Made by a program: the position numbers and the translations under genes | Notes under the pieces: generated by a model | What the model was told of the DNA's origin: nothing | Seen by the model: only the letters and a program-made list of their open reading frames with translations | Database searches by the model: none | Part shown: piece after piece, positions 1,755-18,465 of the stretch | Layout: each line of letters begins with the position of its first letter | Numbering within the stretch: the stretch's first letter is position 1 | DNA from: Clostridia bacterium | GTDB lineage: Bacteria > Bacillota > Clostridia > Christensenellales > CAG-314 | Assembly: GCA_028710055.1 (NCBI GenBank) | Contig: JAQUSX010000002.1 | Coordinates: 1-18,465 of the forward strand | Direction of reading: 5' to 3' | Length of the DNA: 18,465 nt

Positions 1755-1993
1755 TGAATAACCTCGTACATATTTTCCGCTTGTTCCTTGCGGACGGTTT
1801 CGCTTATAACTAAAATGCGGAATTTGAGCTCGCCTTTGGCAAACCTTACGCTCACGACGTCTCCGACTTTTATTTGCGCCGACGGTTTCGCTTGTTTGTC
1901 GTTTACGTATACTTTTCCGCCCGAACACGCGTCGTTTGCCACCGTTCTGCGTTTTAATATTCTTGATACTTTTAAAAATTTGTCCAGTCTCAT
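1751..1993 (-). CDS. rqcP: RqcP-type S4 RNA-binding protein (ribosome quality control)
   Basis: An 80-residue protein that is almost entirely an S4 domain: MRLDKFLKVSRILKRRTVAN at the start, then GGKVYVNDKQAKPSAQIKVGD, the typical S4 loop and strand pattern. It matches the YabO/RqcP (Hsp15-like) family, which binds obstructed 50S subunits holding peptidyl-tRNA and, with RqcH, supports addition of alanine tails to stalled chains. The ATG is preceded by AGGAA on the minus strand and by a promoter at 2039-2067, so it leads a two-gene operon. Its TGA (1751-1753) overlaps the ispDF ATG. In Bacillus the family member sits near mazG and divIC, so the pairing with ispDF is unusual. A plain heat-shock Hsp15 role cannot be excluded, but the length and lineage favour RqcP. 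Confidence 0.85.
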   Translation of the reverse strand: MRLDKFLKVSRILKRRTVANDACSGGKVYVNDKQAKPSAQIKVGDVVSVRFAKGELKFRILVISETVRKEQAENMYEVIQ

Positions 1994-2310: not shown

Positions 2311-2338
2311 AAAAAAGGCTTGACCGTTGACAAGCCTT
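2311..2338 (-). terminator. Inverted repeat that reads as a terminator on the minus strand
   Basis: AAGGCTTG (2315-2322) and CAAGCCTT (2331-2338) form an 8-bp stem with an 8-base loop. On the minus strand the stem is followed immediately by a run of T residues (complement of the A run from 2310), the layout of an intrinsic terminator. No minus-strand gene lies upstream; it would stop antisense RNA coming from rpoB. The same DNA contains the rpoB -35 box and spacer, so an operator role is also possible. Confidence 0.6.
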
Positions 2339-2348
2339 ATGTTATAGT
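2320..2348 (+). promoter_or_regulatory. Promoter of rpoB-rpoC
   Basis: TTGACC (2320-2325), a 17-base spacer and TATAGT (2343-2348) with an extended -10 TG at 2340-2341. Transcription should begin near 2355, giving a leader of about 165 bases. The -35 box and spacer lie inside the inverted repeat 2315-2338. A dedicated promoter is expected here because rplJL does not precede rpoB in this genome. Confidence 0.75.
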
Positions 2349-2518: not shown

Positions 2519-5500
2519 ATGGCAACAGGAATCCGTACGGTTAAATACGGTATCAGAGAAAGAAAAACCTTTTCCAAAATCAAAGAAGTTTTGGATGTCC
2601 CAAACCTTATCGAAGTTCAAAAAGCCTCTTATAACGCGTTCGTAAACGAAGGCATACGAGAGGTTTTTGACGATTTTTCTCCCATTGTGGACTTTGCCGG
2701 AAACTTTGAATTACATTTTTTGGAGCATACTTTGGACACAAAATCAAAGTATTCCGAAAGAGAATGCCGCGAGCGCGACGCAACTTACGCCGCACCGCTT
2801 AAACTCAAAGTTCGTCTTATTCGCACAGACACGGGCGAAATGATCGATAACGAAGTATTTATGGGCGATTTTCCGTTAATGACCGACACAGGCAGTTTTA
2901 TCATTAACGGCGCGGAAAGGGTTGTGGTTTCACAGCTTGTTCGTTCGCCCGGCGTGTACGCTGACGGCGACCGCGACAAAAACGGTAATATGCAGTATGA
3001 CACCACGGTTATACCAAATCGCGGAGCGTGGCTGGAATTCGTACAAGACGGCAACAACAATATTTTGTCCGTTCACGTCGACCGCAACAGAAAACTACCC
3101 GCTACCGTGCTGCTTAGATCAATAGGCATCGGTACGGACGATAAAATAGCGGAATTATTCGATAATGACGAAACCATTCTAAAAACCTGCGAAAAGGATT
3201 CTACAAAATCCGAAAGAGAAGGTCTTATCGAATTATACAAAAGACTGCGTCCGGGCGAAATTCCCACAGACGAATCAATAAAAAAACAACTGCACGACTT
3301 GTTATTTGATAGCAAACGTTATGATCTAGCGCGTGTCGGCAGATATAAATTTAATAAAAAACTTTCGTTGGCAAACCGCATTATGGGTTTTGCTTCGGCG
3401 GAAGACATTACCGCTTTCGGTAAAAAAATAGTAAGTAAGGGCGAAGTTTTCACAAAAGAACTCGCTTACAAAGTTCAACACAGCGGCGTTAACGTCGTTT
3501 ACGTTGATATTAAAGGCAAGCGCGTAAAGGTTATCGGTAACGGCGTGGTTGATATGAACCACTATATGCCGCTAGTTAACAAGGCGTACAAAGATATCGA
3601 CTTTAAGCAACAATGCGGTATAAACGAATTTGCTAACCTTATCGAACTCACCGCGATTTTGGACAAAAAACTTTCAATCGACGACACGTTGAAAGAAATA
3701 AAAGAAAACAAAGAAAAACTTATTCCCAAACATATCACCAGAGAAGATATTATATCAACAGTTTCATACAACATAAATTTGAAATACGGTCTTGGCAATA
3801 TAGACAATATCGACCACCTTGGAAACCGCAGAGTGCGTTCCGTGGGCGAACTATTGCAAAATCAATTCCGTATCGGTATCGCGCGTCTTGAGCGTGTTAT
3901 CCGCGAACGTATGGCGATACAGGAAATCGACAAAGCGACTCCCCAAAGCCTTATTAATGTTCGTCCCGTTACGAGCGCGATAAAAGAATTTTTCGGAAGC
4001 AGTCAGCTTTCGCAGTTTATGGACCAGACCAACCCTATCGCCGAACTTACTCACAAAAGAAAACTTTCGGCACTAGGTCCCGGCGGCTTAAACCGCGACA
4101 GAGCGACATTTGACGTTCGTGACGTACACCACTCGCACTACGGCAGAATGTGTCCTATCGAAACTCCCGAAGGTCAAAACATCGGTTTGATTACTTCGCT
4201 GGCTTCCTTCGCGCGTATTAACGAATACGGTTTTATCGAATCGCCTTACCGCAGAATCGACAGAGAAAAACACATCGTTACAGACATCGTCGATTATCTG
4301 CCCGCGGACGAAGAAGACAAATATATAGTGGCGCAGGCTAACGAACAGCTTGACGAAAAAGGCTGGTTTATAAGCGAACGTGTTACTTGCCGCCAAAGAG
4401 AAAATATAGCGGAATTCCCGCGCGAAGCGGTTGATTATATGGACGTAAGCCCCAAACAGCTTATTTCCGTAGCTACAAGTCTTATTCCGTTCTTGGAAAA
4501 CGACGATACCAATAGAGCCTTGATGGGCAGTAACATGCAACGTCAGGCCGTGCCTTTGCTTGTGCCCGAACAACCTATCGTGGCGACGGGTATTGAGCAT
4601 CGTATAGCGTACGACAGCGGCGTAATGATAATATCAAAACACGCGGGTACGGTTACCAGAGTTATTGGCGATGAAATAATAGTTACCGACAAACAAAATA
4701 ACGAACACAGTTATCCGCTAAAAAAATTCGTACGCAGCAACCAAGGCACGTGCATAAATCAGCGTCCGATAGTAAAAAAAGGACAAAAAGTTGAAATCGG
4801 CGAGATTTTGGCTGACGGTCCCGCTACAAACGGCGGCGAGCTTTCTTTGGGTAGAAACATTCTTATCGGCTTTATGTCATGGGAAGGCTACAACTACGAA
4901 GACGCTATACTTATTTCCGAAAAACTTGTAAAAGAAGACGTGTTCACTTCTATTCACATAGAAGAGCACGAAATAGAAACCCGTGACACAAAACTCGGCG
5001 CGGAAGAATTTACGCGCGATATTCCTAACGTCGGAGAAGAAGCGTTAAAAGACCTTGACGAAGACGGCATTATCCGTATCGGCGCGGAAGTTCACCCCGG
5101 CGACATACTCGTCGGCAAAGTAACTCCCAAAGGCGAAACGGACTTGACACCCGAAGAAAGACTATTAAGGGCAATATTTAGCGAAAAAGCCCGCGAAGTA
5201 AGAGATACTTCTTTGCGCGTTCTTAACGGCGAAGGCGGAATAGTCGTAGACGTAAAAGTATTTACCCGTGAAAACAAAGACGAACTCGATCCAGGCGTTA
5301 ATAAACTGGTCAGAGTATATATCGCTCAAAAACGTAAAATCTCAGTCGGCGACAAAATGGCGGGCCGTCACGGTAACAAGGGCGTTATCAGCAGAATCCT
5401 GCCCGAAGAAGATATGCCGTTTATGGAAGACGGCACACCGCTCCAAATCGTGTTGAACCCCTTAGGCGTTCCTTCACGTATGAACATCGGTCAGGTTTTG

Positions 5501-6367
5501 GAAGTCCACCTTGGACTTGTTGCGAAAATGCTCGGCTGGGAAGTCGCGACACCCGTATTTGACGGCGCGACGGAGCAGGACATAAAGAGCTTATTTGAAC
5601 AAAACTGCATGACAAACCCCGAAACTGGCAAAGTAGACGGCAAAGTCGTGCTTTACGACGGACGCACAGGTATGCCGTTTAATAACAGAGTTACAGTCGG
5701 CTATATGTATATGCTCAAACTTATCCACCTTGTAGACGACAAAATCCACGCTCGTTCTATCGGACCGTACAGCCTTGTTACGCAGCAACCCTTGGGCGGC
5801 AAAGCTCAGTTCGGCGGACAACGTTTCGGTGAAATGGAAGTTTGGGCTTTGGAAGCTTATGGCGCGGCAAATGTATTGCAAGAAATACTTACGGTAAAAT
5901 CCGACGACGTAGTCGGACGTGTAAAGACGTACGAATCCATAGTAAAAGGCGAAAATATCGCAGACCCGGGTATACCCGAATCATTTAAAGTTTTGATAAA
6001 AGAATTGCAGTCGCTCGCACTTGACGTAAAAGTTTTGTCCGAAGACAAAGAAGAAATCATCGTGCGCGATTCGTCCGACGACGAAGCCGACCTATTAGAA
6101 GTCAATCTGCGTGAACAAGAAGAAAAACGCGAGATTATGCATACTTTCAGCGATTTGGAAAAAATCGATCTCGGCAAGGACGACGAACCGTTTGAGTTTG
6201 GCGACGACGAAGATAAAAATTTCGATATAGACGATTTGTTCGCTAGTGAAGAAGAAAAACCGACAAAAAATAAAAAAGCTAAAAAAGAAGAAAGCGATTT
6301 TGACGAAATGGACGATTTTGCGGACTTACTCGGCGGCTTTGACGACGAAGAGGAGGAGAATAAATAA
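2519..6367 (+). CDS. rpoB: RNA polymerase subunit beta
   Basis: 1282 residues, the catalytic beta subunit that with beta' forms the active cleft of RNA polymerase. Visible landmarks are the rifampicin pocket (about residues 493-520, with [24 protein letters not shown]), [14 protein letters not shown] just after it, GYNYEDAI, the [10 protein letters not shown] active-site segment (946-955) and the [11 protein letters not shown] end of the conserved core. The residues that usually mutate in rifampicin resistance (D of MDQ, H of THK, S of LSALG) are wild type, so sensitivity is expected. After the core comes a tail of about 60 residues rich in D, E and K. The ATG at 2519 is chosen because GGGGTGA precedes it and family homology starts there; the frame is open for 31 codons upstream. 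The gene ends in TAATG with rpoC. Confidence 0.99.
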
Positions 6368-9300
6368 TGTTTGAACTAAACAATCTTGATTCAATCCAAA
6401 TAGGAATAGCTTCTCCGGAAAAAATCCGCGAATGGTCTTGCGGTGAAGTAACAAAACCCGAAACAATCAACTACCGCACGCAAAAACCCGAAAAAGACGG
6501 TCTTTTTTGCGAGCGTATTTTTGGTCCCACGAAAGACTGGGAATGCCATTGCGGCAAATATAAACGCATACGCTACAAAGGCGTAGTTTGCGACAAATGC
6601 GGCGTAAAAGTAACCAAAGCGAAAGTCAGACGCGAGCGTATGGGACATATCGAACTCGCCGCTCCCGTTTCGCACATTTGGTATTTTAGAGGTATGCCGA
6701 GCAGAATGGGATTGCTGCTCGATATGTCGCCGAAACCGCTTGAACAAGTATTAAACTTTGCCAGCTACGTAATATTGGACCCCAAAGCCACTCCGCTCAC
6801 GAAAAAGCAGGTGCTTTCGGCTAACGAATACAAAGAAGCCGTTGAAACTTACGGCAAAAACACCTTTAAGGCTGGTATGGGCGCGGAAGCTATTAAAGAA
6901 CTTTTGCAGGAAATCGATCTTGAAAAAGAATCGAAAGAACTTAAAGCCATTTTGGAAAAAGCTACGGGACAAAAAAGAGCCAGAGCGATTAAACGTATCG
7001 AAATAGTGGAAGCTTTCCGTAAAAGCGGAAACCGCCCCGAATGGATGATACTTGACGTTCTGCCCGTTTTGCCTCCCGAATTGCGTCCTATGGTGCCGCT
7101 GGACGGCGGAAGATACGCGACGAGCGACCTAAACGACCTTTACCGCAGAGTAATAAACCGTAACAACAGACTTAAAAAACTTTTGGAAATAAACGCTCCC
7201 GATATTCTTATCAGAAACGAAAAGCGTATGTTGCAGGAAGCTGTCGATAGTCTTATCGATAACAGCCGCAGCAAACGTCCGCAATCGGGCGCGGGAAACA
7301 GAGAACTTAAATCTTTATCTGGACTGCTTCGCGGCAAACAAGGACGTTTCCGTCAAAACCTACTCGGCAAACGTGTAGACTACTCGGGTCGTTCCGTTAT
7401 CGTAGTAGGACCGGAACTTAAAATGCATCAGTGCGGTCTGCCTAAGGAAATGGCGCTTGAGTTGTTCAAACCTTTCGTTATGAAAAAACTGGTGGAAACG
7501 GGACAATGCCACAACGTAAAAAGCGCGAAACGCAGAGTGGAAAGAGCGGACGTAAAAGTATGGGACGTACTTGAAGAAGTTATTAAAGACCACCCCGTAA
7601 TGCTTAACCGCGCGCCCACGTTGCATAGATTATCTATTCAAGCGTTTGAACCCGTATTGATTGAAGGCAGAGCGATAAAACTGCATCCGCTAGCATGTAC
7701 GGCTTTTAACGCAGACTTCGACGGCGACCAAATGGCCGTTCACGTTCCTTTGTCAATCGAAGCGCAAACGGAAGCTAGATACCTTATGCTTGCCAGCAAT
7801 AACATTTTAAAACTTTCCGACGGCCGACCCGTAGTTTCGCCTACAAAAGATATAGTTTTGGGCTGCTACTATTTGACCATAGATAAAGAAGGCGCGAAAG
7901 GCGAAGGCAAATTTTTCGCTAGTATGGATGAAGCGATTTTGGCTTACAACGCGGGTGTTATCGAGCTGCAATCTTTGATTAACGTCAGAGTGTCAAAAGC
8001 CGTTGACGGCGAAATCGTTACGGGAATAATTCATACGACGGTAGGCCGCATGATATTCAACGAAGCTATTCCGCAAGATCTTGGTTTCACTCCGCGCGTT
8101 ACTAAGGAAGATTATCTAAAAAACGAGTTTGAAGTTACCGTTGACAATAAAAAACTTTCTCAAATCGTCGAACGCTGCTATAAAAAACACGGCACGACGG
8201 CGACAGCGGAACTGCTGGATAAAATAAAGGGAATGGGCTATAAATACGCTACGGTATCAGGAATAACCGCTTCGATATTCGATATGCATATTCCCGCGGA
8301 AAAACCCGAAATATTGAAAATCGCCAGCGATAAAGTTTTGAAAATAGAACAACAATATGAAATAGGCGAACTCACCGATCACGAAAGATACAACGAAGTC
8401 GTTGCAACATGGAAAGAAGCAACCGACCAAGTAACCGAAAAACTCAAAAAGACCTTAGATAAATTCAACCCTATTTGGATGATGGCAAACTCAGGCGCGC
8501 GTGGTAACATGAGCCAAATCCGTCAGCTTTCAGGTATGCGCGGACTTATGACGGACCCCAACGGTAAAACTATTGAGTTACCCGTTAAAGCGTGCTTCAG
8601 AGAAGGCTTAACCGTATTGGAATACTTTATTTCCTCTCACGGCGGACGTAAAGGTCTTGCCGACACCGCATTAAAGACAGCGGACAGCGGATATTTGACA
8701 AGACGTCTGGTCGACGTTTCTCATGACGTGATAGTCAGAGAAGAAGATTGCGCTCACGGCGGACGCCCGCAAGGTATGTGGGTATCGGCAATAACGGGCG
8801 GCAGCAAAGCGGAAGTTATTGAAAGACTGCGCGACCGTATTATCGGCAGATACACGATAGATGATATAGCAGACCCCAAAACGGGCGAAATTATCGCAAA
8901 AGGCGACACGATGATTACCGATGAAACGGCTGACCGTATCGTAGACGCGGGAGTAGAAAAAGTTTATATTCGTTCCGTGCTTACCTGCAAAAGCAGATAC
9001 GGCATTTGCAGCAAATGTTACGGTAAAAATATGGCGACAAGCACACCCGTGCAACTCGGCGAAGCGGTCGGCGTAATAGCCGCTCAAAGTATCGGCGAAC
9101 CTGGCACGCAGCTTACAATGCGTACCTTCCATACAGGCGGCGTAGCAATAGCCGAAGATATCACGCAAGGTCTTCCACGTGTCGAAGAACTGTTTGAAGC
9201 AAGACGACCAAAAGGCGTTGCGCTCGTATGCGAAAACAGCGGTATTGTTTCATTAATTGAAAAAGACAACAATAAACGCCAAATTTTGGTAAAAGACAAA

Positions 9301-9930
9301 GACAGCGAAAAAGCTTACGATATTCCTTACACCGCAAGAATAAAAGTGAAAGAAGGGGACGTTGTGGAAAGCGGAACGCTTTTGACCGAAGGCAGCGTTT
9401 ATCCGCACGATTTACTGAGAACGAAAGGTCTGAAAGCGGTACAGGAATATCTGTTAAAAGAAGTTCAATCGACTTACAGACTGCAAGGCGTTGAGATTAA
9501 CGATAAACACGTAGAAGTAATCATTCGTCAAATGCTGAGAAAAGTCAAGGTGGAAGACGCGGGCGATACCACGCTTTTGCCGGGCGACTTGGTAGATTTG
9601 TATAAATTTGAAGAAGAAAACACCGCAACGCTCGAACAAGGCGGAAAACCCGCAACGGGCAAACGTACTCTATTGGGTATCACAAAGGCTTCTTTGGCAA
9701 CCGACAGCTTCCTTTCGGCGGCGTCCTTCCAGGAAACAAGCAGAGTGCTTACCGAGGCTGCGATTAAATGCAAGACGGACCCGTTATACGGCTTAAAGGA
9801 AAACGTAATTATAGGTAAACTTTTGACTGCGGGCACAGGACTCAAAAACTACCGCAATTATACCGTTAAATCTTTGGTTACCGAGTCCGATACGGATTAT
9901 ATAGCCGAAGTAGACGCGGAAGAAAAATAA
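6367..9930 (+). CDS. rpoC: RNA polymerase subunit beta'
   Basis: 1187 residues, the beta' subunit carrying the catalytic magnesium. The N-terminal zinc ribbon uses C60, C62, C75 and C78. The catalytic loop NADFDGDQM is at 448-456. The second zinc site is C795, C874, C881 and C884. [19 protein letters not shown] at 907-925 marks the trigger-loop region. The end ([17 protein letters not shown]) is the usual beta' closing segment. Length is normal for Bacillota, with no large lineage insertion. The ATG shares its A with the rpoB TAA, and the ribosome binding site GAGGAGGAG lies inside the last rpoB codons, so beta and beta' synthesis should be coupled. No YbxF/L7Ae-like gene follows, unlike in Bacillus; a new promoter leads to rpsL. 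Confidence 0.99.
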
Positions 9931-9950
9931 ACAAAATACTTGCGTTTCGT

Positions 9951-9979
9951 TTGACGGAAAAAAGTTATTTTGATACAAT
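9951..9979 (+). promoter_or_regulatory. Promoter of rpsL-rpsG-fusA
   Basis: TTGACG (9951-9956), a 17-base spacer and TACAAT (9974-9979), beginning 20 bases after the rpoC stop. Initiation near 9986 would give a leader of about 88 bases. No terminator is seen between rpoC and this promoter, so read-through is also expected. Confidence 0.75.
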
Positions 9980-10010
9980 GATTTTTGGCGTTAAAAAACG
10001 CTGAAATATA

Positions 10011-10039
10011 AAGAAAACTCTTTTTGAAAGACTTTTCTT
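10011..10039 (+). other. Long AT-rich hairpin in the rpsL leader
   Basis: AAGAAAA (10011-10017) pairs with TTTTCTT (10033-10039). After one C-C mismatch, TCTTT (10019-10023) pairs with AAAGA (10027-10031), leaving a 3-base loop. A smaller hairpin, GCGTT/AACGC (9988-10001), precedes it. No T tract follows, so it is not a terminator. A leader element or stabilising stem is inferred. Confidence 0.4.
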
Positions 10040-10073
10040 ACCGACATCACATCATTTAAAGGAGGTAAAAAAA

Positions 10074-10448
10074 TTGGCAACTATCAATCAGCTTATTAAG
10101 CAAGGCAGAGAACGCGACGCGTATAAAAGCAAAACGCCGTTACTTGGTCACAGTCCTCAAAGACGCGGAGTTTGTTTGTCCGTAACGACTACTTCTCCCA
10201 AAAAACCGAATTCGGCTTTACGCAAAATATGCAGAATCAGACGTACTAACGGCGACGAAGGCACATGCTACATTCCAGGCGAAGGTCACAATCTGCAAGA
10301 ACATAGCGTTGTTCTTATTCGCGGCGGCAGAGTAAGAGATTTGCCCGGTGTGCGTTATCACGTTATTCGCGGCACGCTTGACACCGCGGGCGTTGCAAAC
10401 CGCAAACAAGCCCGTTCAAAATACGGCGTAAAACGTCCCAAGAAATAA
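10074..10448 (+). CDS. rpsL: 30S ribosomal protein S12
   Basis: 124 residues, the decoding-centre protein of the small subunit. It aligns without gaps to E. coli S12: [10 protein letters not shown] (42-51), [10 protein letters not shown] (69-78), [13 protein letters not shown] (84-96) and the SKYGVKRPK end. K43 is conserved, but position 88, normally lysine, is arginine, the same change that gives streptomycin resistance in several bacteria. Other changes around the decoding loops are S36 for R, T38 for Y, S41 for T, D61 for F and G63 for V (E. coli numbering). Translation starts at TTG: AAAGGAGG lies 7 bases in front of it and family homology begins there. First gene of rpsL-rpsG-fusA, with its own promoter. 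Confidence 0.98.
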
Positions 10449-10472
10449 ACTTTTCTAGGACAAAAAAATTTC

Positions 10473-10596
10473 TTAGTTACAGCTTTAAGTGTGATATGTC
10501 GGTTAAGACGCTCACATGATAGGCAGTATGCGCGAATTAATAATTCTGCAGAAGTTTCTCCGATTAAATTTTAGTCGTTGAGTTAGCTGTATCTAA
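10473..10596 (+). ncRNA. Multibranched RNA structure between rpsL and rpsG
   Basis: A closing helix joins TTAG (10473-10476) to CTAA (10593-10596) and, after one T-T mismatch, TACAGCT (10478-10484) to AGCTGTA (10585-10591). Inside are three hairpins. The first is GTGTGA (10489-10494)/TCACAT (10512-10517), topped by GTC/GAC (10498-10509). The second is GCA (10523-10525)/TGC (10547-10549), continuing as GAATT (10534-10538)/AATTC (10542-10546). The third is CGATT (10561-10565)/AGTCG (10573-10577). This fills most of the 187-base gap before rpsG. In E. coli the S12-S7 junction is where S7 binds to repress the str operon, so an S7-binding operator is the leading idea. I know no described family with this layout. 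Confidence 0.55.
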
Positions 10597-10635
10597 AAGA
10601 GCAAAGTAAAAATATCAAAAGGAGGAAAGACATTT

Positions 10636-11106
10636 ATGCCAAGAAGAAGCGGCGTCCCAAAAAGAGACGTTCTTCCCGATCCTATTTACAATAGTAAAAT
10701 CGTCACAAAAGTTATAAATCAAATTATGCTTGACGGTAAAAAAGGGACCGCGCAACAAATCGTCTACGGAGCGTTTGATCTTATTAAAGATAAAATGAAC
10801 GCGGAACCGATGGACGTATTCAATCAAGCGTTAAATAACGTTATGCCAATGTTGGAAGTCAAAGCTCGCAGAGTCGGCGGATCAAACTACCAAGTTCCTA
10901 TGGAAATCCGTCCCGAAAGAAGACAGACTTTGGCTATTCGTTGGCTTGTATTATTTTCAAGAAAACGTAGTGAGAAAGAAATGTATCAAAGACTCGCGGG
11001 AGAGTTGATGGACGCTTACAACTCTACGGGCAACGCTTTCAAAAAGAAAGAGGATATGCACCGTATGGCTGAAGCGAACAAGGCATTCGCTCACTACCGT
11101 TGGTGA
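10636..11106 (+). CDS. rpsG: 30S ribosomal protein S7
   Basis: 156 residues, the usual length for the protein that nucleates assembly of the 30S head and contacts mRNA near the E site. The family core [20 protein letters not shown] is at about residues 79-98, followed by AIRWLV and the closing NKAFAHYRW. The ATG has GGAGG 10 bases upstream. It is separated from rpsL by a long structured gap but is only 15 bases from fusA. It stops in TGA followed at once by TAA (TGGTGATAA), confirming TGA as a stop here. S7 is the likely autoregulator of its own operon, as in E. coli. Confidence 0.98.
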
Positions 11107-11121
11107 TAAGCAGAAGACATT

Positions 11122-13212
11122 ATGACTAGAAATTATCCGCTAAGCCGCGTGCGCAATATAGGTATTATGGCGCATATCGACGCAGGCAAAACCACAACAA
11201 GCGAACGCATTTTGTTTTTCACGGGTAAAACCCGTAAATTAGGCGAAGTGCACGAAGGCACGGCTACAATGGACTTTATGATTCAAGAGCAGGAAAGGGG
11301 TATAACTATAGGCTCCGCCGCTACCACAGTCCATTGGCTGAATCCGTACGACAAGACCGATTATCGTATAAATCTTATAGATACTCCCGGTCACGTTGAC
11401 TTTACGGTAGAAGTCGAGCGGTCGCTTAGAGTTTTAGACGGAGCAGTCGCCGTTTTTTGCGCAAAAGGCGGTGTAGAACCGCAAAGCGAAACCGTCTGGC
11501 ATCAAGCGACGAAATACGGTGTACCGCGTATCGCGTTTGTCAACAAAATGGATATTAACGGAGCGAATTACTTGAACGTCGTTAATATGATGCGAGAAAG
11601 ACTGAAAACAAACGCAATGCCCATACAATTACCGATAGGAAAAGAAGACACTTTTAAAGGCGTAGTGGATATCATCGACCAAAAAGCTTATTATTACCTA
11701 GACGCGCAGGGAAACGATATAAAAGTTAAAGAAATACCCAAGGAAATGGCGGACGAAGTTCATATTTACCGCACGCAACTAGAAGAATTCGTTGCGGGAA
11801 GAGACGATGAACTGGCTACGAAATTTTTGGAAGGAACTTCTTTGACCGTTGACGAAATCAAAAAAGGCGTCAGAAAAGCTACGTTAGACCTTGCAATGAC
11901 TCCGGTTTTATGCGGTTCGGCTTACAAAAACAAAGGCGTTCGGCTTTTACTCGACGCTGTTTGCGATTATTTGCCAAGTCCGTCCGATATTCCGGACGTT
12001 GTAGGTTTTGATGTAAAAAATAACGAGAAAAAAATAACTCGCAAGGCCGACGACAAAGAACCGCTTTGCGCCATAGCTTTCAAAATAGTGACCGACCCAT
12101 TCGTGGGCAAGCTTGCATATGTAAGAATTTACAGCGGCACGCTTACGGCGGGAAGTTACGTATATAACTCGTCTCGCGGAAAACGTGAAAGAATATCAAA
12201 AGTTCTGCAAATGCACGCAAACCACAGAGAAGAAATAGAAGAAAGCTACGCGGGCGAAATAGTGGCTGTTGTTGGACTTAGAGATACCACCACAGGCGAC
12301 ACCCTTTGCAGCGAAAAAGCTCCGATATTATTAGACAGTATGGTTTTCCCCGAACCTGTTATAAAAGTGGCTATAGAGCCAAAAACAAAACAGGGCGGCG
12401 AAAGAATGCTTGTCGCTTTATCGAAGCTATCGGACGAAGACCCGACTTTCAGAACTTATACTGACAGCGAAACGGGTCAGACAATCATCGCGGGCATGGG
12501 CGAACTGCACCTTGAAATAATAGTAGACAGACTGCTTAGAGAATTTAAAGTCGAAGCGAATATCGGCAAGCCGCAGGTTTCTTACAGAGAAACGATTACG
12601 GTTCCCGCCGAAGGAGAAGGCAAATATATCCGTCAAACGGGCGGAAAAGGCGCGTACGGCCATTGCGTTATCAGACTCGAACCGCTTGAAAAAGGCAAAG
12701 GATTTGAGTTCGTTGACAAAAGCGTCGGCGGCGTCGTTCCAAAAGAATATATTACGCCTATCAAAAACGGTATTTTGGAAGCGTCCAAAAGCGGCGTTTT
12801 GCTGGGATATGAGATGGTAGACTTTAGAGCAGTTTTGATTGACGGCAGTACCCACCCTGTGGATTCATCTGAAATGGCGTTTAAAATAGCGGGTTCACTA
12901 GCTTTCCGCGAAGCGGCGGCAAAAGCGAAACCAATACTACTCGAACCCATGATGAAAGTAGAAGTTACGCTGCCCGAAGAATATTTGGGCGACGTTATGG
13001 GAAATATCACAAGCAGACGCGGCAATATCACGGGTATAGAAATAAGAAACGGCATTCAAGTAATAAACGCGACGATACCGCTTTCGACTATGTTCGGATA
13101 CGCTACGGATTTACGCAGTCATACCCAAGGAAGGGGTAATTACACGATGCAATTTGACGCGTTTACGCAAGTGCCGAAGGCTGTTGCGCTGAAAATGGGT
13201 ATAAAACCGTAA
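11122..13212 (+). CDS. fusA: Translation elongation factor G
   Basis: 696 residues, the GTPase that drives tRNA-mRNA translocation and, with RRF, ribosome recycling. The GTPase motifs are AHIDAGKT (17-24), RGITI (59-63), DTPGH (87-91), NKMD (141-144) and GSAYKNKG further on. The later domains include the domain-IV segment [11 protein letters not shown] and the closing [16 protein letters not shown]. Length fits classical EF-G1. The start is set by homology: the site in front of ATG 11122 (AAGCAGAAG) is a poor ribosome binding site, unlike every neighbour, so initiation probably depends on ribosomes finishing rpsG 15 bases upstream. No terminator follows; a tuf promoter does. Confidence 0.98.
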
Positions 13213-13236
13213 AAGCGGGAAAACGCTCAAAAAGTG

Positions 13237-13265
13237 TAGACCAAAAATCAAAAGTATATTATAAT
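13237..13265 (+). promoter_or_regulatory. Promoter of tuf
   Basis: TAGACC (13237-13242), a 17-base spacer and a perfect TATAAT (13260-13265) in the 110-base fusA-tuf gap. It should start near 13272, about 50 bases before the ATG. The strong -10 fits the high demand for EF-Tu over EF-G. Confidence 0.7.
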
Positions 13266-13322
13266 GTATACAAAATCAAATAAAAAATTATTATCTATGT
13301 ATAATTAGGAGGAAACAAACCA

Positions 13323-14537
13323 ATGGCAAAACAAAAATTTGACAGAACCAAGCCCCACGTCAATATCGGTACTATCGGACACGTCGACCACGGTAAAACC
13401 ACTTTGACGGCTGCTATTACAATGGTGCTTAATATGAAAGGCGAAGCGACAGTTATGAAATACGACGAAATAGATAAAGCGCCCGAAGAAAAAGCAAGAG
13501 GTATCACGATCAATACAGCTCACGTTGAATATCAAACGGAAAAACGCCACTACGCACACGTTGACTGCCCGGGACACGCAGACTATGTTAAAAACATGAT
13601 CACAGGCGCGGCTCAAATGGACGGCGCAATCCTCGTTGTTTCCGCAGCAGACGGTCCTATGCCTCAAACCCGCGAGCACATTTTGTTGGCTCGTCAGGTA
13701 GGCGTACCTTATATAGTTGTATTTATGAACAAAACCGACTTAGTTGACGACCCGGAACTGCTCGAATTGGTTGAAATGGAAGTTAGAGAATTGCTCAGCA
13801 AATACGAATTCCCCGGCGACGATATTCCTATTATTAAAGGTTCAGCAAAAGTTGCTATGGACGCTGTTTTGGCTGGCAACAACAACCCCGATGATCCTAT
13901 TTTCAAATGCATTTGGGATCTTATGGACGCTGTTGACTCATATATTCCCACACCGGAAAGAGCTACAGACAAACCGTTCCTTATGCCCGTAGAAGACGTT
14001 TTCACTATCACAGGTCGTGGCACAGTTGCTACAGGCAGAGTAGAACGTGGCGAAATTAAAATGGGCGATACAGTAGAAATCGTTGGTCTTAAAGACGAAA
14101 TTACAACCACCGTTGTTACAGGCGTAGAAATGTTCAGAAAACTTCTTGACAGCGCTGTCGCAGGCGACAACGTAGGTTTGTTGCTTCGTGGTATCGCACG
14201 TGCCGACGTAGAACGCGGACAAGTTATTTCTAAGCCCAAGAGCATTCACCCTCACAAAAACTTTGAAGGTCAAGTTTACGTATTGACTAAAGAAGAAGGC
14301 GGACGTCACAGCCCGTTCTTTAACGGATATCGTCCTCAGTTCTATTTCAGAACAACAGACGTTACAGGTTCTATCGAACTTGCTAAGGGCATCGAAATGG
14401 TTATGCCTGGTGACCACACCACAATCAGCGTAAAACTTATCACACCGATCGCTATCGAAGAAGGTCTCCGTTTCGCTATCCGTGAAGGCGGCAGAACAGT
14501 CGGTTCCGGCGTTGTATCCAAGATTTTGGCTGACTAA
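13323..14537 (+). CDS. tuf: Translation elongation factor Tu
   Basis: 404 residues, the GTPase that brings aminoacyl-tRNA to the ribosome. The motifs are GHVDHGKT (19-26), RGITIN (59-64), DCPGHADY (81-88), NKTD (136-139) and GSAK (173-176). Domain 2 and 3 landmarks include [33 protein letters not shown] and [12 protein letters not shown]. Compared with B. subtilis EF-Tu there are about 8 extra residues after GSAK (around 177-193, [15 protein letters not shown]), a place where other phyla also carry insertions. NKTD replaces the common NKxD forms NKVD/NKCD. AGGAGG lies 8 bases before the ATG. It has its own promoter and a terminator after it, so it can be made apart from fusA. Confidence 0.99.
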
Positions 14538-14559
14538 TTAGTAATTTTAAAAATTAAAT

Positions 14560-14600
14560 ATAAAGGGCATCAAAAACGGTGCCCTTTATTATTTCTCTTT
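14560..14600 (+). terminator. Terminator after tuf
   Basis: ATAAAGGGCA (14560-14569) pairs with TGCCCTTTAT (14580-14589), extended by one G-U and one C-G pair, around a short loop. The 3' flank is T-rich but interrupted (TTATTATTTCTCTTT), so termination may be incomplete. Confidence 0.7.
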
Positions 14601-14692
14601 ATAGGATGCTTTTGTAAAAATCATTGTTTATTAATCCGTATAGCAGTAATCAAAGGATTTTCTACAAAATAGCCGAAAACATTGAAGAGAAA
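14592..14692 (+). ncRNA. Two-helix structured element between tuf and rpmG
   Basis: TTTCTCTTTA (14592-14601) can pair with TGAAGAGAAA (14683-14692, one G-U). Inside it, TTTTGTAAAAATC (14610-14622) pairs with GATTTTCTACAAAA (14656-14669) as 13 bp with one bulged C, leaving a 33-base loop. The region has no reading frame, no tRNA shape and no known family that I recognise. The rest of the gap, 14693-14748, is A-rich and otherwise unremarkable. It could be an RNA made by read-through from tuf, or an old gene remnant at the block junction. Confidence 0.4.
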
Positions 14693-14748
14693 AATTATGC
14701 TGAATCGTGAAAAAAGAAAAGTCAAAAAGTAAAAACCTCGCTATTTTC

Positions 14749-14777
14749 TTGACAACTGGCGTCTGCTATGTTATCAT
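14749..14777 (+). promoter_or_regulatory. Promoter of rpmG-secE-nusG
   Basis: A perfect TTGACA (14749-14754), a 17-base spacer and TATCAT (14772-14777) with an extended -10 TG at 14769-14770. It lies 62 bases before the rpmG ATG and is among the best promoters in the window. It may also feed rplK-rplA, because no terminator follows nusG. Confidence 0.8.
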
Positions 14778-14839
14778 AATCAAGCACTTCTTGGCGGGGG
14801 GTGTAAATTTTTGCGTAAATTTTTTTGGAGAAAATAAAA

Positions 14840-15007
14840 ATGGCTAACAAAAAAGGCAACAGACTCAAAGTTACTCTTGCTTGCACAGAATGCAAAAACC
14901 GTAACTACGACAATATGAAAAACACTAAAAACACCACCGAAAAGCTCGAATTGAACAAATATTGTCCGACTTGCAAAAAACATACCGTTCATAAAGAAGC
15001 GAAATAG
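14840..15007 (+). CDS. rpmG: 50S ribosomal protein L33, zinc-binding form
   Basis: 55 residues of basic protein near the E site of the large subunit. Two CxxC pairs (C15/C18 and C42/C45) make it the zinc-containing C+ form. Many Bacillota also carry a zinc-free copy that replaces it under zinc starvation; none is in this window. The ATG at 14840 is chosen over an upstream ATG (14825) because GGAG ends 9 bases before it and the family begins [10 protein letters not shown]. First gene of rpmG-secE-nusG, an arrangement conserved in Bacillota, with secE 11 bases on. Confidence 0.96.
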
Positions 15008-15018
15008 GAGAAACGAAA

Positions 15019-15228
15019 ATGGCTGAAGTTGTAAAGACCCGTAAAAAATCAAAACTCGCCGAACATCTTTCAAAAAGCTGGTCAGAGCTTAAAAAAGTTT
15101 CGTGGCCGACGTTTTCGACCGTTGTAAAAAATACCAGCGTTGTTTTGGCAGTAGTTTTATTCTTTTTAGTGGTAATCGGAGCCAGCGACGCGCTCTTTGG
15201 ATGGCTGTTGAAGCTCATTAAGGGTTAG
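15019..15228 (+). CDS. secE: Preprotein translocase subunit SecE
   Basis: 69 residues, the short single-span SecE typical of Gram-positive bacteria, which clamps the SecY channel in the membrane. A basic amphipathic N-terminal half contains the family motif ELKKVSWPT (about residues 23-31). One hydrophobic segment follows at about residues 37-60 (VVLAVVLFFLVVIG...). The ATG has AGGAGA upstream and lies 11 bases after rpmG. It is followed by nusG after 19 bases, the common secE-nusG pairing. Confidence 0.96.
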   Translation: MAEVVKTRKKSKLAEHLSKSWSELKKVSWPTFSTVVKNTSVVLAVVLFFLVVIGASDALFGWLLKLIKG

Positions 15229-15247
15229 TCGGCGGTAAAAGGATAAA

Positions 15248-15778
15248 ATGCCGAATAATAATGAAGCTAAATGGTATGTACTTCATACCTATGCGGGCTA
15301 CGAAAATATCGTAAAGGCGAACCTCGAGCAGATGGTTGAGAACAACAATCTGCAAGACGCCATTTTTGATATAAAAATACCCACCGAACAAGTTATTGAA
15401 GAAAAAAACGGCAAAAAACGCGCCGTCGAAGTTAAATCAATGCCTTGTTACGTGTTTGTAAAGCTTATTTATTCATCTCAGATATGGTATCTATTGACCA
15501 ATACGAGAGGCGTAACGGGTTTTGTCGGTCCTCAGGGAAAAGCGTGGCCGCTGGACGAAGACGAAGTCCGCAGACACAAACTTGAAGACTTCAAAATCGA
15601 TTTCGCGCTTGACGTTGGCGAAAACGTAAAAATCATCGACGGTTCTTTTGTCGGTATGATCGGCGCAATCAAATACGTTGACCAAGCCAGACAAAAAGTC
15701 GGTATTATATTAAATATGTTTGGACGCGAAACACCCGTTGAAATGGATTTTGACCAAGTAGAAGCATTACAAAAATAA
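15248..15778 (+). CDS. nusG: Transcription termination/antitermination factor NusG
   Basis: 176 residues. The NGN domain (about residues 7-115, AKWYVLHTYAGYENIVKANL at its start, MPCYVFVK in its core) binds the beta' clamp helices of RNA polymerase. The KOW domain (about 122-175, VGENVKIIDGSFVGMIG and MFGRETPVEMDFDQVEAL) binds partners such as ribosomal S10. The usual region 'GVTGFVG' is intact. AGGA precedes the ATG. There is no insertion like those of some actinobacterial or thermophile NusGs. It is followed by a 150-base gap without a terminator that I can see, so read-through to rplK is likely. Confidence 0.97.
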   Translation: MPNNNEAKWYVLHTYAGYENIVKANLEQMVENNNLQDAIFDIKIPTEQVIEEKNGKKRAVEVKSMPCYVFVKLIYSSQIWYLLTNTRGVTGFVGPQGKAWPLDEDEVRRHKLEDFKIDFALDVGENVKIIDGSFVGMIGAIKYVDQARQKVGIILNMFGRETPVEMDFDQVEALQK

Positions 15779-15811
15779 AACAGACAATAATTTTGTTTTT
15801 AATATTTTCGT

Positions 15812-15839
15812 TTGACGTTTGATTGACGGTAGCTATTGA
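15812..15839 (+). promoter_or_regulatory. Possible promoter of rplK-rplA
   Basis: TTGACG (15812-15817), a 16-base spacer and TATTGA (15834-15839) in the nusG-rplK gap. A second TTGACG at 15823-15828 has no matching -10 box. The weak -10 makes this uncertain. Confidence 0.35.
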
Positions 15840-15931
15840 AAAGCAAATTTCAATTAACAAAAATATTTTCAAAAAACAAAGTTAATAATAAATTAAGACA
15901 CAAATTTTAGCCGAAAAAAATTGGCTATGCA

Positions 15932-15958
15932 GTGGAAGGGCATTTGCCCGTTTACCAC
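15932..15958 (+). promoter_or_regulatory. L1-binding site mimic in the rplK-rplA leader
   Basis: GTGG (15932-15935) pairs with CCAC (15955-15958). GGGC (15938-15941) pairs with GCCC (15946-15949). An uneven internal loop (AA against GTTTA) separates them. This copies the L1 site of 23S rRNA helices 76-77, where GGTGGGAGG faces AAATACCACC. In E. coli, free L1 binds such a mimic to repress rplK-rplA translation. The stem ends 2 bases before AGGAG of rplK, well placed to block it. A small TAGCC/GGCTA hairpin (15908-15927) lies just upstream. Confidence 0.8.
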
Positions 15959-15970
15959 AAAGGAGATAAA

Positions 15971-16396
15971 ATGGCAAAAAAAGTAACAGGAGTAGTAAAG
16001 CTCCAACTTAACGCCGGTAAAGCGACACCGGCACCCCCGGTTGGTTCCGCATTAGGTCCTACCGGTATCAATATTCCTATGTTTGTTAAGGAATTTAACG
16101 CGAAAACGCAAGACAAAATGGGTTTGATTATTCCCGTAATCATTACGATTTATCAAGACCGTTCTTTCACATTCGTGTTGAAAACCCCGCCGGCATCCGT
16201 GCTTATCAAAAAAGCGTGCGGAATTGAAAGCGCCAGCAGCGTTCCAAACCGCGACAAAGTAGCGAAAATCACCAAAGCTCAAATCGAAGAAATCGCAAAA
16301 CTCAAAATGGTTGACCTTAACGCGGCTAACCTTGAAACAGCTTGTTCAATGATAGCAGGCACGGCGCGCAGTATGGGCGTCGTCGTCGAAGGTTAA
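15971..16396 (+). CDS. rplK: 50S ribosomal protein L11
   Basis: 141 residues, the normal length. L11 builds the GTPase-associated region with 23S helices 43-44 and is needed for RelA activation. The N-terminal domain has the proline segment [18 protein letters not shown] (about residues 19-36). Position 26, proline in most bacteria, is serine, and position 30, usually glutamine, is proline (E. coli numbering). The C-terminal RNA-binding domain is standard ([20 protein letters not shown], then the GTARSMG end). The start is ATG 15971, after AGGAG and where homology begins; an in-frame GTG at 15932 lies inside the L1-site hairpin and is rejected. rplA follows after 13 bases. Confidence 0.98.
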
Positions 16397-16409
16397 GGAG
16401 GAACGTCAA

Positions 16410-17093
16410 ATGAAAGGAAAAAGATTTACACAAGCTCTTGAAAAGTTTGACAAAAGCAAAGCTTACGAAGTAGACGAAGCTATCCAACTCGCTCTCGATA
16501 CAGCAACGGCAAAATTTGATGAAACACTCGAACTTCACGTTAGACTTGGCGTTGACCCCAGACACGCAGACCAACAAGTTCGCGGCACGGTAGTATTACC
16601 GAACGGAACAGGTAAAAAAGTCCGCGTTTTGGTTATCGCAAAGGGCGCAAAAGCGGACGAAGCTCAAGCAGCGGGCGCTGATTACGTAGGAGCGGAAGAA
16701 ATCGTTCAAAAAATTCAAAAAGACAACTGGTTTGAATTTGACGTGTGTATTACAACCCCCGATATGATGGGCGTTGTCGGACGTATAGGTAAAATATTAG
16801 GTCCTAAAGGACTTATGCCCAACCCCAAGAGCGGCACTGTCACAATGGACGTAACCAAAGCTATTAACGAAGTTAAAGCAGGTAAGGTTGAATACCGTGT
16901 TGACAAAACAGCTATCTGTCACGTTATTTTCGGCAAAAAAAGCTTTGGTAAAGAAAAACTTTACGAAAATCTGCAGGCTATTATGGAAGCAATCATCAAA
17001 GCTAAGCCGGCAAGCGCAAAGGGAACATATCTTAAGAGCGTCGTTATCGCTTCTACTATGGGACCCGGCGTAAAAGTAGTTTATAGAGCTTAA
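16410..17093 (+). CDS. rplA: 50S ribosomal protein L1
   Basis: 227 residues, near the usual 229-234. L1 forms the mobile stalk that escorts deacylated tRNA from the E site, and it represses its own operon by binding the leader mimic at 15932-15958. Family signatures include [20 protein letters not shown] (about 42-61), [20 protein letters not shown] (about 127-146) and [17 protein letters not shown] (about 158-174). AGGAGG precedes the ATG, and the gene sits 13 bases after rplK. It ends ahead of the L10 leader. Confidence 0.98.
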
Positions 17094-17121
17094 TTAACAA
17101 TAATTTAACTGAATAAAAAGT

Positions 17122-17231
17122 TCTGGTATTCTAAGACAGCAAGTAAAAAAATAAATCTTGCCGAGATACATTGACAAAATTAAAGGATATTCCTTTTTGC
17201 CCTTGTATTTACGGTAATACAAGGGCTTTTT
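17122..17231 (+). promoter_or_regulatory. Ribosomal protein L10 leader with attenuator
   Basis: The conserved core is visible: AAGACAGCAAG (17133-17143), an A/T-rich loop and CTTGCCGAG (17157-17165), where GCAAG pairs with CTTGC and GTAT (17126-17129) with ATAC (17166-17169). This matches the L10 leader of Bacillota (AGACAGCAGG...CCTGCCGAGG), which folds to bind L10-(L7/L12)4 and stop its own synthesis. A short AAAGGA/TCCTTT hairpin (17182-17196) and an intrinsic terminator follow, so control should be transcription attenuation. Confidence 0.88.
17199..17231 (+). terminator. Attenuator terminator in the L10 leader
   Basis: A perfect 11-bp stem (GCCCTTGTATT 17199-17209 with AATACAAGGGC 17216-17226), a 6-base loop and five T residues (17227-17231). 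It lies between the L10-binding fold and rplJ, the position expected for a conditional terminator. Confidence 0.88.
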
Positions 17232-17261
17232 AATACAAAATATTAAAAGGAGGAACAAAAT

Positions 17262-17777
17262 TTGAGCGAACAAGAAAAGATGTCCGTAAGCAAATCAGCT
17301 AAAAGAGAAGTCGTAGACGAAATCAAAAATACGATTTCACAGTCTCAGTCTTTCGTTTTGATAGACTATAAAGGTTTGACAGTTGCTCAGGACACCGAAT
17401 TTAGAAAAACTTTCCGTGAAGCAGGCGTTAAATATCAAGTACTTAAAAACACTTTGGTAAGAATCGCGTTAAACGAACTTGGATACAACGAGTTTGACGA
17501 AGCTTTAAACGGACCCACAGCCGTAGCTTTTGGTATGACAGACGCGCTTGCTCCCGCAAAAGTAGCGGACGAGAGCATAACAAAATACAAGGCTATGCAA
17601 ATAAAATGCGGTATGATGGACAAAAAGTTTATCGACAAAGTTACAGTCGAACAACTTGCTAAAGTTCCCGCTAAGCCCGTTTTACTTTCTATGTTGCTTT
17701 CGGTCTTGACCGCGCCTGTAAGAGGTATGGCGGTAGCGTTGAACCGTTTGGCGGAAAAGAAAGGCGAACAAGCGTAA
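17262..17777 (+). CDS. rplJ: 50S ribosomal protein L10
   Basis: 171 residues, the base of the stalk, which holds L7/L12 dimers on its C-terminal helix and binds the GTPase-associated rRNA beside L11. Family features are KREVVDEIKNTISQSQSFVL near the N-terminus, the DYKGLTVAQ segment, LKNTLVRIAL and NGPTAVAF. The helical tail (about residues 131-171) would carry L7/L12. The start is TTG 17262, with AAAGGAGG ending 8 bases upstream; an internal ATG six codons on has no such site. It is preceded by the L10 leader and attenuator and followed after 65 bases by rplL. Confidence 0.97.
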   Translation: MSEQEKMSVSKSAKREVVDEIKNTISQSQSFVLIDYKGLTVAQDTEFRKTFREAGVKYQVLKNTLVRIALNELGYNEFDEALNGPTAVAFGMTDALAPAKVADESITKYKAMQIKCGMMDKKFIDKVTVEQLAKVPAKPVLLSMLLSVLTAPVRGMAVALNRLAEKKGEQA

Positions 17778-17786
17778 TTAATCGGT

Positions 17787-17806
17787 CGGCGAAATATTAG
17801 ACGCCG
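17787..17806 (+). other. Hairpin in the rplJ-rplL gap
   Basis: CGGCG (17787-17791) pairs with CGCCG (17802-17806) over a 10-base loop, followed ten bases later by a run of seven T residues. The distance is too long for a good intrinsic terminator. It may protect or separate the rplJ and rplL parts of the message, which must differ about fourfold in output. That role is inference. Confidence 0.35.
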
Positions 17807-17842
17807 CAAAACATTTTTTTAAAATATATTAGGAGAAAAATA

Positions 17843-18208
17843 ATGGAAATCGCAAAATTTATTGAAGAAATTAAAAATATGACCGTTCTTGAATTGAACG
17901 AGTTAGTAAAAGCAATCGAAACGGAATTCGGCGTTTCTGCCGCTGCTCCCGTTGCAGTTGCGGCTGGTCCCGCAGCAGCAGCTCCCGCTGAAGAAAAAAC
18001 AGAATTTGACGTTGTTTTGAAAGCAGTTGGACCTAAGAAAATCGAAGTTATCAAAGCTGTCCGCGAACTCACAGGTCTTGGTCTTGTTGAAGCTAAAAAC
18101 CTTGTTGAAGGCGCACCCAGCACAGTTAAAGAAGCACAACCCAAAGAAGAAGCTGAGAAAATGGTTGCAAAACTTAAAGAAGCTGGCGCTGAAGCTGAAC
18201 TTAAATAA
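17843..18208 (+). CDS. rplL: 50S ribosomal protein L7/L12
   Basis: 121 residues, the multicopy acidic stalk protein that recruits and activates EF-Tu, EF-G and other factors. The N-terminal dimer domain (about 1-30, [19 protein letters not shown]) binds L10. An alanine-rich hinge follows (about 33-50, [17 protein letters not shown]). The C-terminal factor-binding domain starts at about residue 54 ([20 protein letters not shown]) and includes [26 protein letters not shown] precedes the ATG. In most bacteria rpoB follows; here a strong terminator comes 17 bases after the stop. Confidence 0.98.
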
Positions 18209-18224
18209 TTTTAATTTTAAAAAT

Positions 18225-18253
18225 AAAAAAGACGGTAATTTACCGTCTTTTTT
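18225..18253 (+). terminator. Strong terminator after rplL
   Basis: AAAAAAGACGGTAA (18225-18238) mirrors TTACCGTCTTTTTT (18240-18253). The working stem is GACGGT/ACCGTC plus A-T pairs, running into six T residues. It is symmetric, so it could end transcription from either side. Confidence 0.92.
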
Positions 18254-18465
18254 GTTATCATTTTTTACAAATTTTTTTGATTTTTGATTTTGAATTTTAC
18301 CGTTAAATTACCTCGCATTTAATTTTTTTAATATTCTTAAATTAATCGTTAATTGAGCGATTTTCCGCTATTCTTTATTTATTTCGCAAAAATTCTGTCT
18401 CAGAACGCACAAACGTTACATTAACAATTGCTCATATGATTTGATTTTCGTTTCTAGGGTAAAAT

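Follow-up and report, generated by a model that had tools for sequence, protein, structure and literature searches.

The gene order of the secE-rpoBC-str cluster is among the most conserved in bacteria and serves the inference of deep ancestry. Its usual order is rpmG-secE-nusG-rplKAJL followed by rpoBC-rpsL-rpsG-fusA-tuf, two parts that we label block A (rpmG to rplL) and block B (rpoB to tuf). Here we describe an 18,465-nucleotide stretch of DNA from Clostridia bacterium (GenBank assembly GCA_028710055.1, contig JAQUSX010000002.1; the whole stretch is hereafter called the window), in which block B precedes block A. The closest published comparison of this cluster covers 204 genomes, including 103 Gammaproteobacteria and 80 Bacilli (Brandis 2021, PMC8046335), and the word start 'Clostridi' appears nowhere in its main text. 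As set out in the available part of that paper, the described cluster and the window have the same genes and the same internal order within each operon. Rearrangement by segmental duplication and subsequent loss of duplicate genes is the subject of the SNAP model, as outlined in the accessible sections of the same work and of an earlier paper (Brandis & Hughes 2020, PMC7055797; PMC8046335).

Block order in the window and its relatives

The window is one entire contig (C12) of a 994-kb assembly that is 76% complete and consists of 198 contigs. Each of the 13 core genes matched NCBIfam above the curated cut-off, and all lie on the + strand, with block B (2519–14537) followed by block A (14840–18208). 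Both blocks are present, contiguous and on one strand with their internal order intact, which marks the locus as a secE-rpoBC-str cluster; the adjacency of rplL to rpoB, with A before B, is absent, rplL starting 11.5 kb past the end of rpoB. An earlier model-generated interpretation of the same DNA (the sequence-only reading) had described the blocks as exchanged, each with its internal order kept, and had placed all 13 genes correctly. Sequence searches of this 76%-complete assembly returned a single rpoB, a single rplL and a single tuf, and a second rplJL-rpoBC arrangement, which that reading had named as evidence against itself, was not found in it.

Relatives were classified by the position of rplL with respect to rpoB, with distance cut-offs of 10 kb and 35 kb chosen in this analysis; the resulting counts are lower bounds, as scoring required rpoB and rplL to share a contig. 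Below, f1 denotes the window's family, other f-numbers other families, and g-numbers genera. Among 41 f1 genomes searched (rpoB match in 37, rplL match in 38), both genes share a contig in 11; in every one of these rplL lies on the same strand as rpoB, 12–20 kb further downstream, and the canonical order occurs in none. In addition to the window, the complete rotated order was read in eight members (G001, G011, G012, G014, G024, G032, G033 and G040), with the end of rpoB read in a neighbouring stretch in some of them, while four others (G027, G030, G031 and G036) carry the blocks on different contigs.

Across the order (180 genomes searched, rplL match in 176, rpoB match in 174), rplL was found on the same contig and strand 12–26 kb downstream of rpoB in at least 17 genomes, ≤10 kb upstream in at least seven (all of them f22), >10 kb upstream in at least three and >35 kb downstream in at least two; at least seven genomes have the two genes on opposite strands. 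The remaining genomes had the genes on separate contigs, lacked a match or fell outside the matches listed. The fusA-tuf-rpmG junction was read in f3, f6, f7 and f25, and in f9 on the contig carrying block A. In a sample of the class (147 genomes, 8 from the window's order), rplL lies ≤10 kb upstream of rpoB in at least 50 genomes, >10 kb upstream in at least four, on the opposite strand in at least three and >35 kb downstream in at least one. Outside the window's order, at least one genome of this sample (G291, family f73) has rplL ≤35 kb downstream, without the tuf junction; it was considered as an independent rotation and rejected, since no rpsL, rpsG, fusA or tuf was detected in the 30 kb between rpoB and rplL. 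Among 80 named loci, rplL lies upstream of rpoB in 30 and is missing from at least 3 kb of upstream sequence in 33, the remaining 17 not being judgeable because the upstream sequence was too short or rpoB was missing. Separation of rplL from rpoB is common among relatives.

Phylogenetic placement and ancestral state

Trees were built from RpoB and RpoC (75 taxa) and from ten proteins (64 taxa, FastTree), the latter with only 44 columns of tuf owing to fragments at contig ends, and with 11 rows left out by choice. The rotated families fall in one clade of the order with a support of 1.00 in both trees (clade I, represented by 15 families), f25 branching at or close to the base. Within this clade, rotation was seen in f1, f3, f6, f7, f9 and f25. 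Ten families sampled outside it (clade II) include genomes with two tuf genes and form a clade in the RpoB+RpoC tree, but not in the ten-protein tree.

On both trees two changes suffice, namely a basal rotation in clade I and a return in f22, and four are needed if a return is forbidden. A two-state model, in which no state was assigned to tips with blocks apart or unscored (45 of the 75 and 34 of the 64), favours a rotated ancestor of clade I on the two trees (P = 0.95 and 0.97). A smaller tree (26 rows, 17 with a state) again gave two changes, and for the same 26 rows the best tree recovered when f22 was placed outside a group of all other clade I rows was rejected by the approximately unbiased (AU) test (p-AU 3e-5), a comparison chosen after the first trees had been seen. 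Candidatus Stercoripulliclostridium merdigallinarum (L008), of a genus that NCBI lists under Eubacteriales incertae sedis, class Clostridia, clusters with f22 in both trees. The rotation is old, inherited from the clade I ancestor and shared by relatives, and not particular to the window's genome.

tuf as the proposed hinge of the rotation

We consider it rather probable that this arrangement is a cyclic permutation of the Firmicutes secE-rpoBC-str cluster, brought about by a tuf × tuf duplication and the subsequent loss of the outer copies. The ancestral order would have been mrnC-rlmB-sigH (X), tufB, block A, rpoBC-rpsL-rpsG-fusA and tufA, the near-identical tufB and tufA forming direct repeats ~16 kb apart. 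An unequal tuf × tuf exchange would then duplicate the blocks head to tail (...A-B-tuf-A-B...), from which losing the leading A and the trailing B would leave X-B-tuf-A. In that product the one remaining tuf would be both the end of the str operon and the old neighbour of rpmG-secE, and the contact between rplL and rpoB would be gone. While the duplicated intermediate and the gene losses are steps that we infer, the X-B-tuf-A order is derivable from a head-to-tail duplication and loss with no inversion needed.

Direct repeats of the kind proposed for the duplication ends are present in outgroups as tuf pairs. In Clostridium uliginosum (L009) the canonical block is flanked by tuf at both ends (sigH-tuf-rpmG-...-rplL-rpoB-rpoC-rpsL-rpsG-fusA-tuf), the two copies running in the same direction with 99.75% identity over 1220 bp. 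Family f30, of the window's order, has one tuf between sigH and rpmG and the other after fusA (99.76% identity over 1226 bp), each belonging to one of two blocks that lie on the same strand 327 kb apart. A tufB operon is inferred for the Firmicutes ancestor in the available text of PMC8046335. The join of tuf and rpmG is this old tufB-rpmG-secE adjacency, kept in Clostridium and f30, and the interval 14538–14839 is not the suspect new junction for which the sequence-only reading had taken it. The single tuf keeps both old adjacencies, fusA-tuf and tuf-rpmG, and rplL-rpoB is the sole core adjacency lost.

Counts of tuf matches gave one per genome in all 20 clade I genomes outside f1 and in 36 of the 37 f1 genomes with any match. 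Thirteen genomes outside clade I comprised five with two matches, two with one and six with none at E 1e-60; in three of these six (L150, L153 and L158) the rpoB contig stops inside tuf, as would fit assembly collapse of identical copies.

The genes to the left of the cluster provide a further test. In Bacilli, Clostridium and f30, one or both of rlmB and sigH are located upstream of (tuf-)rpmG, and for Bacilli a left flank of cysS-rnc-rlmB-orf1-sigH is given in the accessible part of Brandis 2021 (PMC8046335). Four f1 genomes (G040, G033, G032 and G027) have mrnC-(thyX)-rlmB-sigH-dnaX-ybaB-recR upstream of ispDF-S4-rpoB (S4 was not detected in the stretch read of G033), and f9 has mrnC-rlmB ~3 kb upstream of rpoB. 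The position of mrnC-rlmB(-sigH) upstream of rpoB in f1 and f9 indicates that the left flank stayed in place while B came between the flank and A, as a tuf duplication with loss of outer copies predicts. In the window's genome mrnC-rlmB-sigH occupies another contig, of 4 kb, which breaks off within sigH; the window for its part begins in recR, a picture consistent with an assembly gap.

Return to the rpl-then-rpo order in f22

Three f22 genomes (G117, G061 and G173) share the order rpmG-(secE)-nusG-rplK-rplA-rplJ-rplL-rplI-(yugP)-ispDF-S4-rpoB-rpoC, with yugP found in two of them. The genes lodged between the blocks are those found at the outer ends of rotated clusters: rplI-yugP follows rplL in f7 and f25 (rplI without yugP there in f1), and ispDF-S4 precedes rpoB in f1, f3 and f6. 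Exactly the f22 order would result if the rotated cluster and its flanks had been duplicated head to tail and the outer copies then lost. We put at about even chances a history in which tuf repeats rotated the cluster once in the founding lineage of clade I and a second duplication-and-loss re-rotated it in f22, trapping rplI-yugP-ispDF-S4 as a scar. If this holds, the 'canonical' rplL-then-rpoB order can be secondary, and would mislead gene-order phylogeny.

As a separate observation, the f22 loci L116, L118 and L145 encode several related proteins in a row, of clusters c15 and c24, between gltX and rpmG; one member of each cluster was scanned and had no Pfam match.

Alternative explanations

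Several observations weigh against the tuf-mediated origin. The genomes are mostly draft assemblies, and rotation was seen in just six of the 15 clade I families, f22 having the rpl-then-rpo order and the other eight showing no joined blocks; relationships among f3, f6, f7, f9 and f22 are poorly resolved. A search of 44 genomes (42 with a match) found rlmB near rpoB in six, five of them among 11 f1 genomes and one in f9. In the f3, f6, f7, f22 and f25 genomes of that search rlmB was elsewhere or not found, and the left flank was not upstream of rpoB in three f25 genomes checked, so that the flank test rests on two families. One f1 genome (G035) carries two tuf matches. Neither a duplicated intermediate nor a decayed remnant was identified among the genomes searched; some genomes of the order and class searches have two rpoB stretches, which in several are pieces of one gene. 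Outside clade I, each of the ten families read has block A separated from block B, so the two blocks may already have been separate before clade I arose. Promoter and terminator calls, presented below, rest on sequence only.

A misjoining of two contigs at tuf-rpmG could be suspected in a fragmented, 76%-complete assembly of 198 contigs, the more so as tuf is a classic collapsed repeat and contigs end in tuf in some relatives. However, the same order stands in eight other f1 assemblies and the tuf-rpmG junction in five other families, all assembled separately, and just one tuf was found in the window's genome. Assembly error, a concern already voiced in the sequence-only reading, is in effect refuted by these independent assemblies and retains a negligible probability. 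Another route would start from X-tufB-A and B-tufA already apart and unite them later by tuf × tuf recombination, a starting point resembling f30, with its distant same-strand blocks each bearing a tuf, and the ten families with A and B apart. Such a union would part the left flank from the cluster, yet mrnC-rlmB-sigH in f1 and mrnC-rlmB in f9 lie upstream of rpoB, and it would excise or displace everything between the two tuf genes; we regard it as unlikely.

An identical end state would be reached if one block had been transposed directly past its partner, through a mobile element or another illegitimate event in which tuf took no part, and transposon-directed moves are given as an alternative in the available text of Brandis 2021 (PMC8046335). 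Such a transposition predicts neither tuf as the hinge nor two tuf genes becoming one, and no mobile-element gene was detected among 30 flank genes scanned with Pfam, most neighbours lying outside that scan; we judge it improbable. Both processes had been offered as origins in the sequence-only reading: tandem duplication with reciprocal loss is kept as the candidate, with the tuf pair added as a substrate that it had not named, and transposition is ranked as a rival. The order of f22 (A-rplI-yugP-ispDF-S4-B) might also be ancestral for clade I, rotation having arisen from it several times. All four intervening genes also occur beside the blocks in rotated families (rplI-yugP after rplL in f7 and f25; ispDF-S4 before rpoB in f1, f3 and f6), and a tuf pair would make rotation recurrent. 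Against this, three changes are required within clade I, compared with one if the ancestor was rotated, and four compared with two overall; f22 is nested, the tree placing it outside being rejected as described above, and only one tuf match was found in each of the three f22 genomes searched. This history appears improbable to us.

Predicted expression signals

Putative promoters precede rpoB and rpmG, and terminator-like hairpins follow tuf and rplL (Table 1), in agreement with the rplL terminator and separate rpoB promoter proposed in the sequence-only reading. The stem-loops after tuf, after rplL and in the rplJ leader were each more stable than all 200 shuffles. Region-wide, 42 promoter-like sites were counted against 28.9 by chance (sd 6.2), a moderate excess only, and 22 terminator-like sites against 23.7, no excess, so that only the named sites, with their position and fold, carry weight. 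A promoter-like site matching at ≥10/12 positions precedes rpmG by 71–133 nt in 16 of 17 loci, and rpoB has one upstream in 13 of 15 (one of the two misses, L093, has its rpoB start cut off), these distances running from the tblastn match and not from a mapped start, without a shuffle control. Promoter-like sites likewise precede rpoB in f22, where the blocks are back in the usual order.

Given the predicted tuf terminator, rpmG promoter, rplL terminator and rpoB promoter, B and A are today probably transcribed as separate units, with rplJL under its own L10 leader. The proposal that stalk-protein synthesis is uncoupled from that of RNA polymerase is sustained in part: transcription of the stalk-protein genes apart from the polymerase genes is plausible from this anatomy, yet it is not peculiar to the window, as the 33 named loci with rplL away from rpoB attest. 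Special regulation need not be invoked to account for the arrangement.

Two further features were noted. A terminator-like hairpin on the minus strand (2315–2338, z −3.5) overlaps the predicted rpoB promoter and is perhaps an insulator or an operator-like inverted repeat. Between recR and ispDF, a minus-strand open frame of 104 aa (239–553) has no NCBIfam match.

Table 1 Genes and predicted signals in the window (promoter-like sites were called from the sequence alone)
Feature	Position	Strand	Evidence or remark
recR 3' end, last 39 codons, cut by contig end	1..120	+	NCBIfam recR 1.8e-10; 72% identity to G040 recR
ispDF, ATG at 1754	681..1754	-	listed ORF (open reading frame) 681-1928 starts at an earlier GTG within the S4 gene
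S4-domain RNA-binding protein, Hsp15-like	1751..1993	-	below NCBIfam cut-off; Pfam S4 in G032 relative
rpoB promoter-like site, TTGACC-17-TATAGT with TG	2320..2348	+	predicted
rpoB, first gene of block B	2519..6367	+	NCBIfam
rpoC	6367..9930	+	NCBIfam
rpsL (S12)	10074..10448	+	NCBIfam
rpsG (S7)	10636..11106	+	NCBIfam
fusA (EF-G)	11122..13212	+	NCBIfam
tuf (EF-Tu), sole copy found; proposed recombination point, hinge of B and A	13323..14537	+	NCBIfam
Terminator-like hairpin 3' of tuf	14560..14589	+	z -6.9
rpmG-secE-nusG promoter-like site, TTGACA-17-TATCAT with TG	14749..14777	+	predicted; 11/12, ~92 nt upstream of rpmG
rpmG (L33), first gene of block A	14840..15007	+	NCBIfam
secE	15019..15228	+	NCBIfam
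nusG	15248..15778	+	NCBIfam
rplK (L11)	15971..16396	+	NCBIfam; listed ORF starts at 15932
rplA (L1)	16410..17093	+	NCBIfam
L10 leader (Rfam RF00557) upstream of rplJL, attenuator hairpin 17199-17226 (z -4.9)	17112..17241	+	
rplJ (L10)	17262..17777	+	NCBIfam
rplL (L7/L12), last gene of block A	17843..18208	+	NCBIfam
Terminator-like hairpin 3' of rplL	18222..18256	+	z -7.2

Later breakage and neighbouring loci

In genus g3 of f1, genes have been inserted between tuf and rpmG, which lie 1.7 to 6.5 kb apart in five genomes. Elsewhere in g3, relatives of these inserted genes are found on two contigs, following tuf on the one and preceding rpmG on the other, the same insert-then-separate pattern as in the available sections of Brandis 2021 (PMC8046335). 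A different break is seen in the f1 genome G007 (L190, L191), where rplL is followed by rpsL-rpsG-fusA-tuf, with rpsL 3 kb off, and rpoC is followed by rplI-prs-spoIIQ on another contig. Its flanks after tuf and before rpmG match those of G009, in which the blocks are on different contigs; a single reciprocal break, which would be an inversion if the two loci are oriented towards each other, therefore suffices to explain G007, and circle excision, which had been considered, was dropped.

Other observations concern the surroundings of these loci. Upstream of rpmG, G007 has an open frame of 2408 codons (L195), with relatives at the same place in other g3 genomes. RpoB open frames in g3 (L091-L092, L094, L081) reach ~1465–1570 residues, compared with 1282 in the window, which suggests a large insertion in the g3 RpoB. 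In f3, f6, f7 and f9, rpoC is followed by metK-recD2-(phosphoribosyltransferase)-secA, and metK-recD2 is present in f22 and f16 too (L108, L110, L114, L106, L149, L144, L154).

Comparison with described systems

The sections of Brandis 2021 (PMC8046335) that are available treat insertions, deletions and separations, and they contain no cyclic permutation of secE-rplKAJL and rpoBC-str. No description of the rotated order was found in the literature, as judged largely from abstracts and with subscription journals mostly outside coverage. The L10 leader upstream of rplJ occupies the same attenuator position as in the known system, with a full-length match to the Rfam model of 42.4 bits (E 5e-4), slightly under its curated gathering score of 44. 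With a rotated clade, a mechanism leaving checkable marks (one tuf in place of two, and the positions of the flanks) and a nested reversal, this is a testable case of how conserved clusters may rearrange without breaking any operon, and it suggests that the usual gene order, once regained, need not be ancestral.

Work by Hughes in 2000 reportedly dealt, going by its title, with gene conversion and inversions involving tufA and tufB. Near-identical tuf genes as a substrate for recombination are common to that system and ours, whereas inversions figure in the title and the direct copies considered here would give a duplication. As far as the accessible sections of the SNAP paper go (PMC7055797), the rearrangement that we propose is of the same type. 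Unlike in the SNAP model in general, the ends of the proposed duplication would here be two tuf genes, and the loss would be reciprocal, leading to a rotation and perhaps to a later re-rotation.

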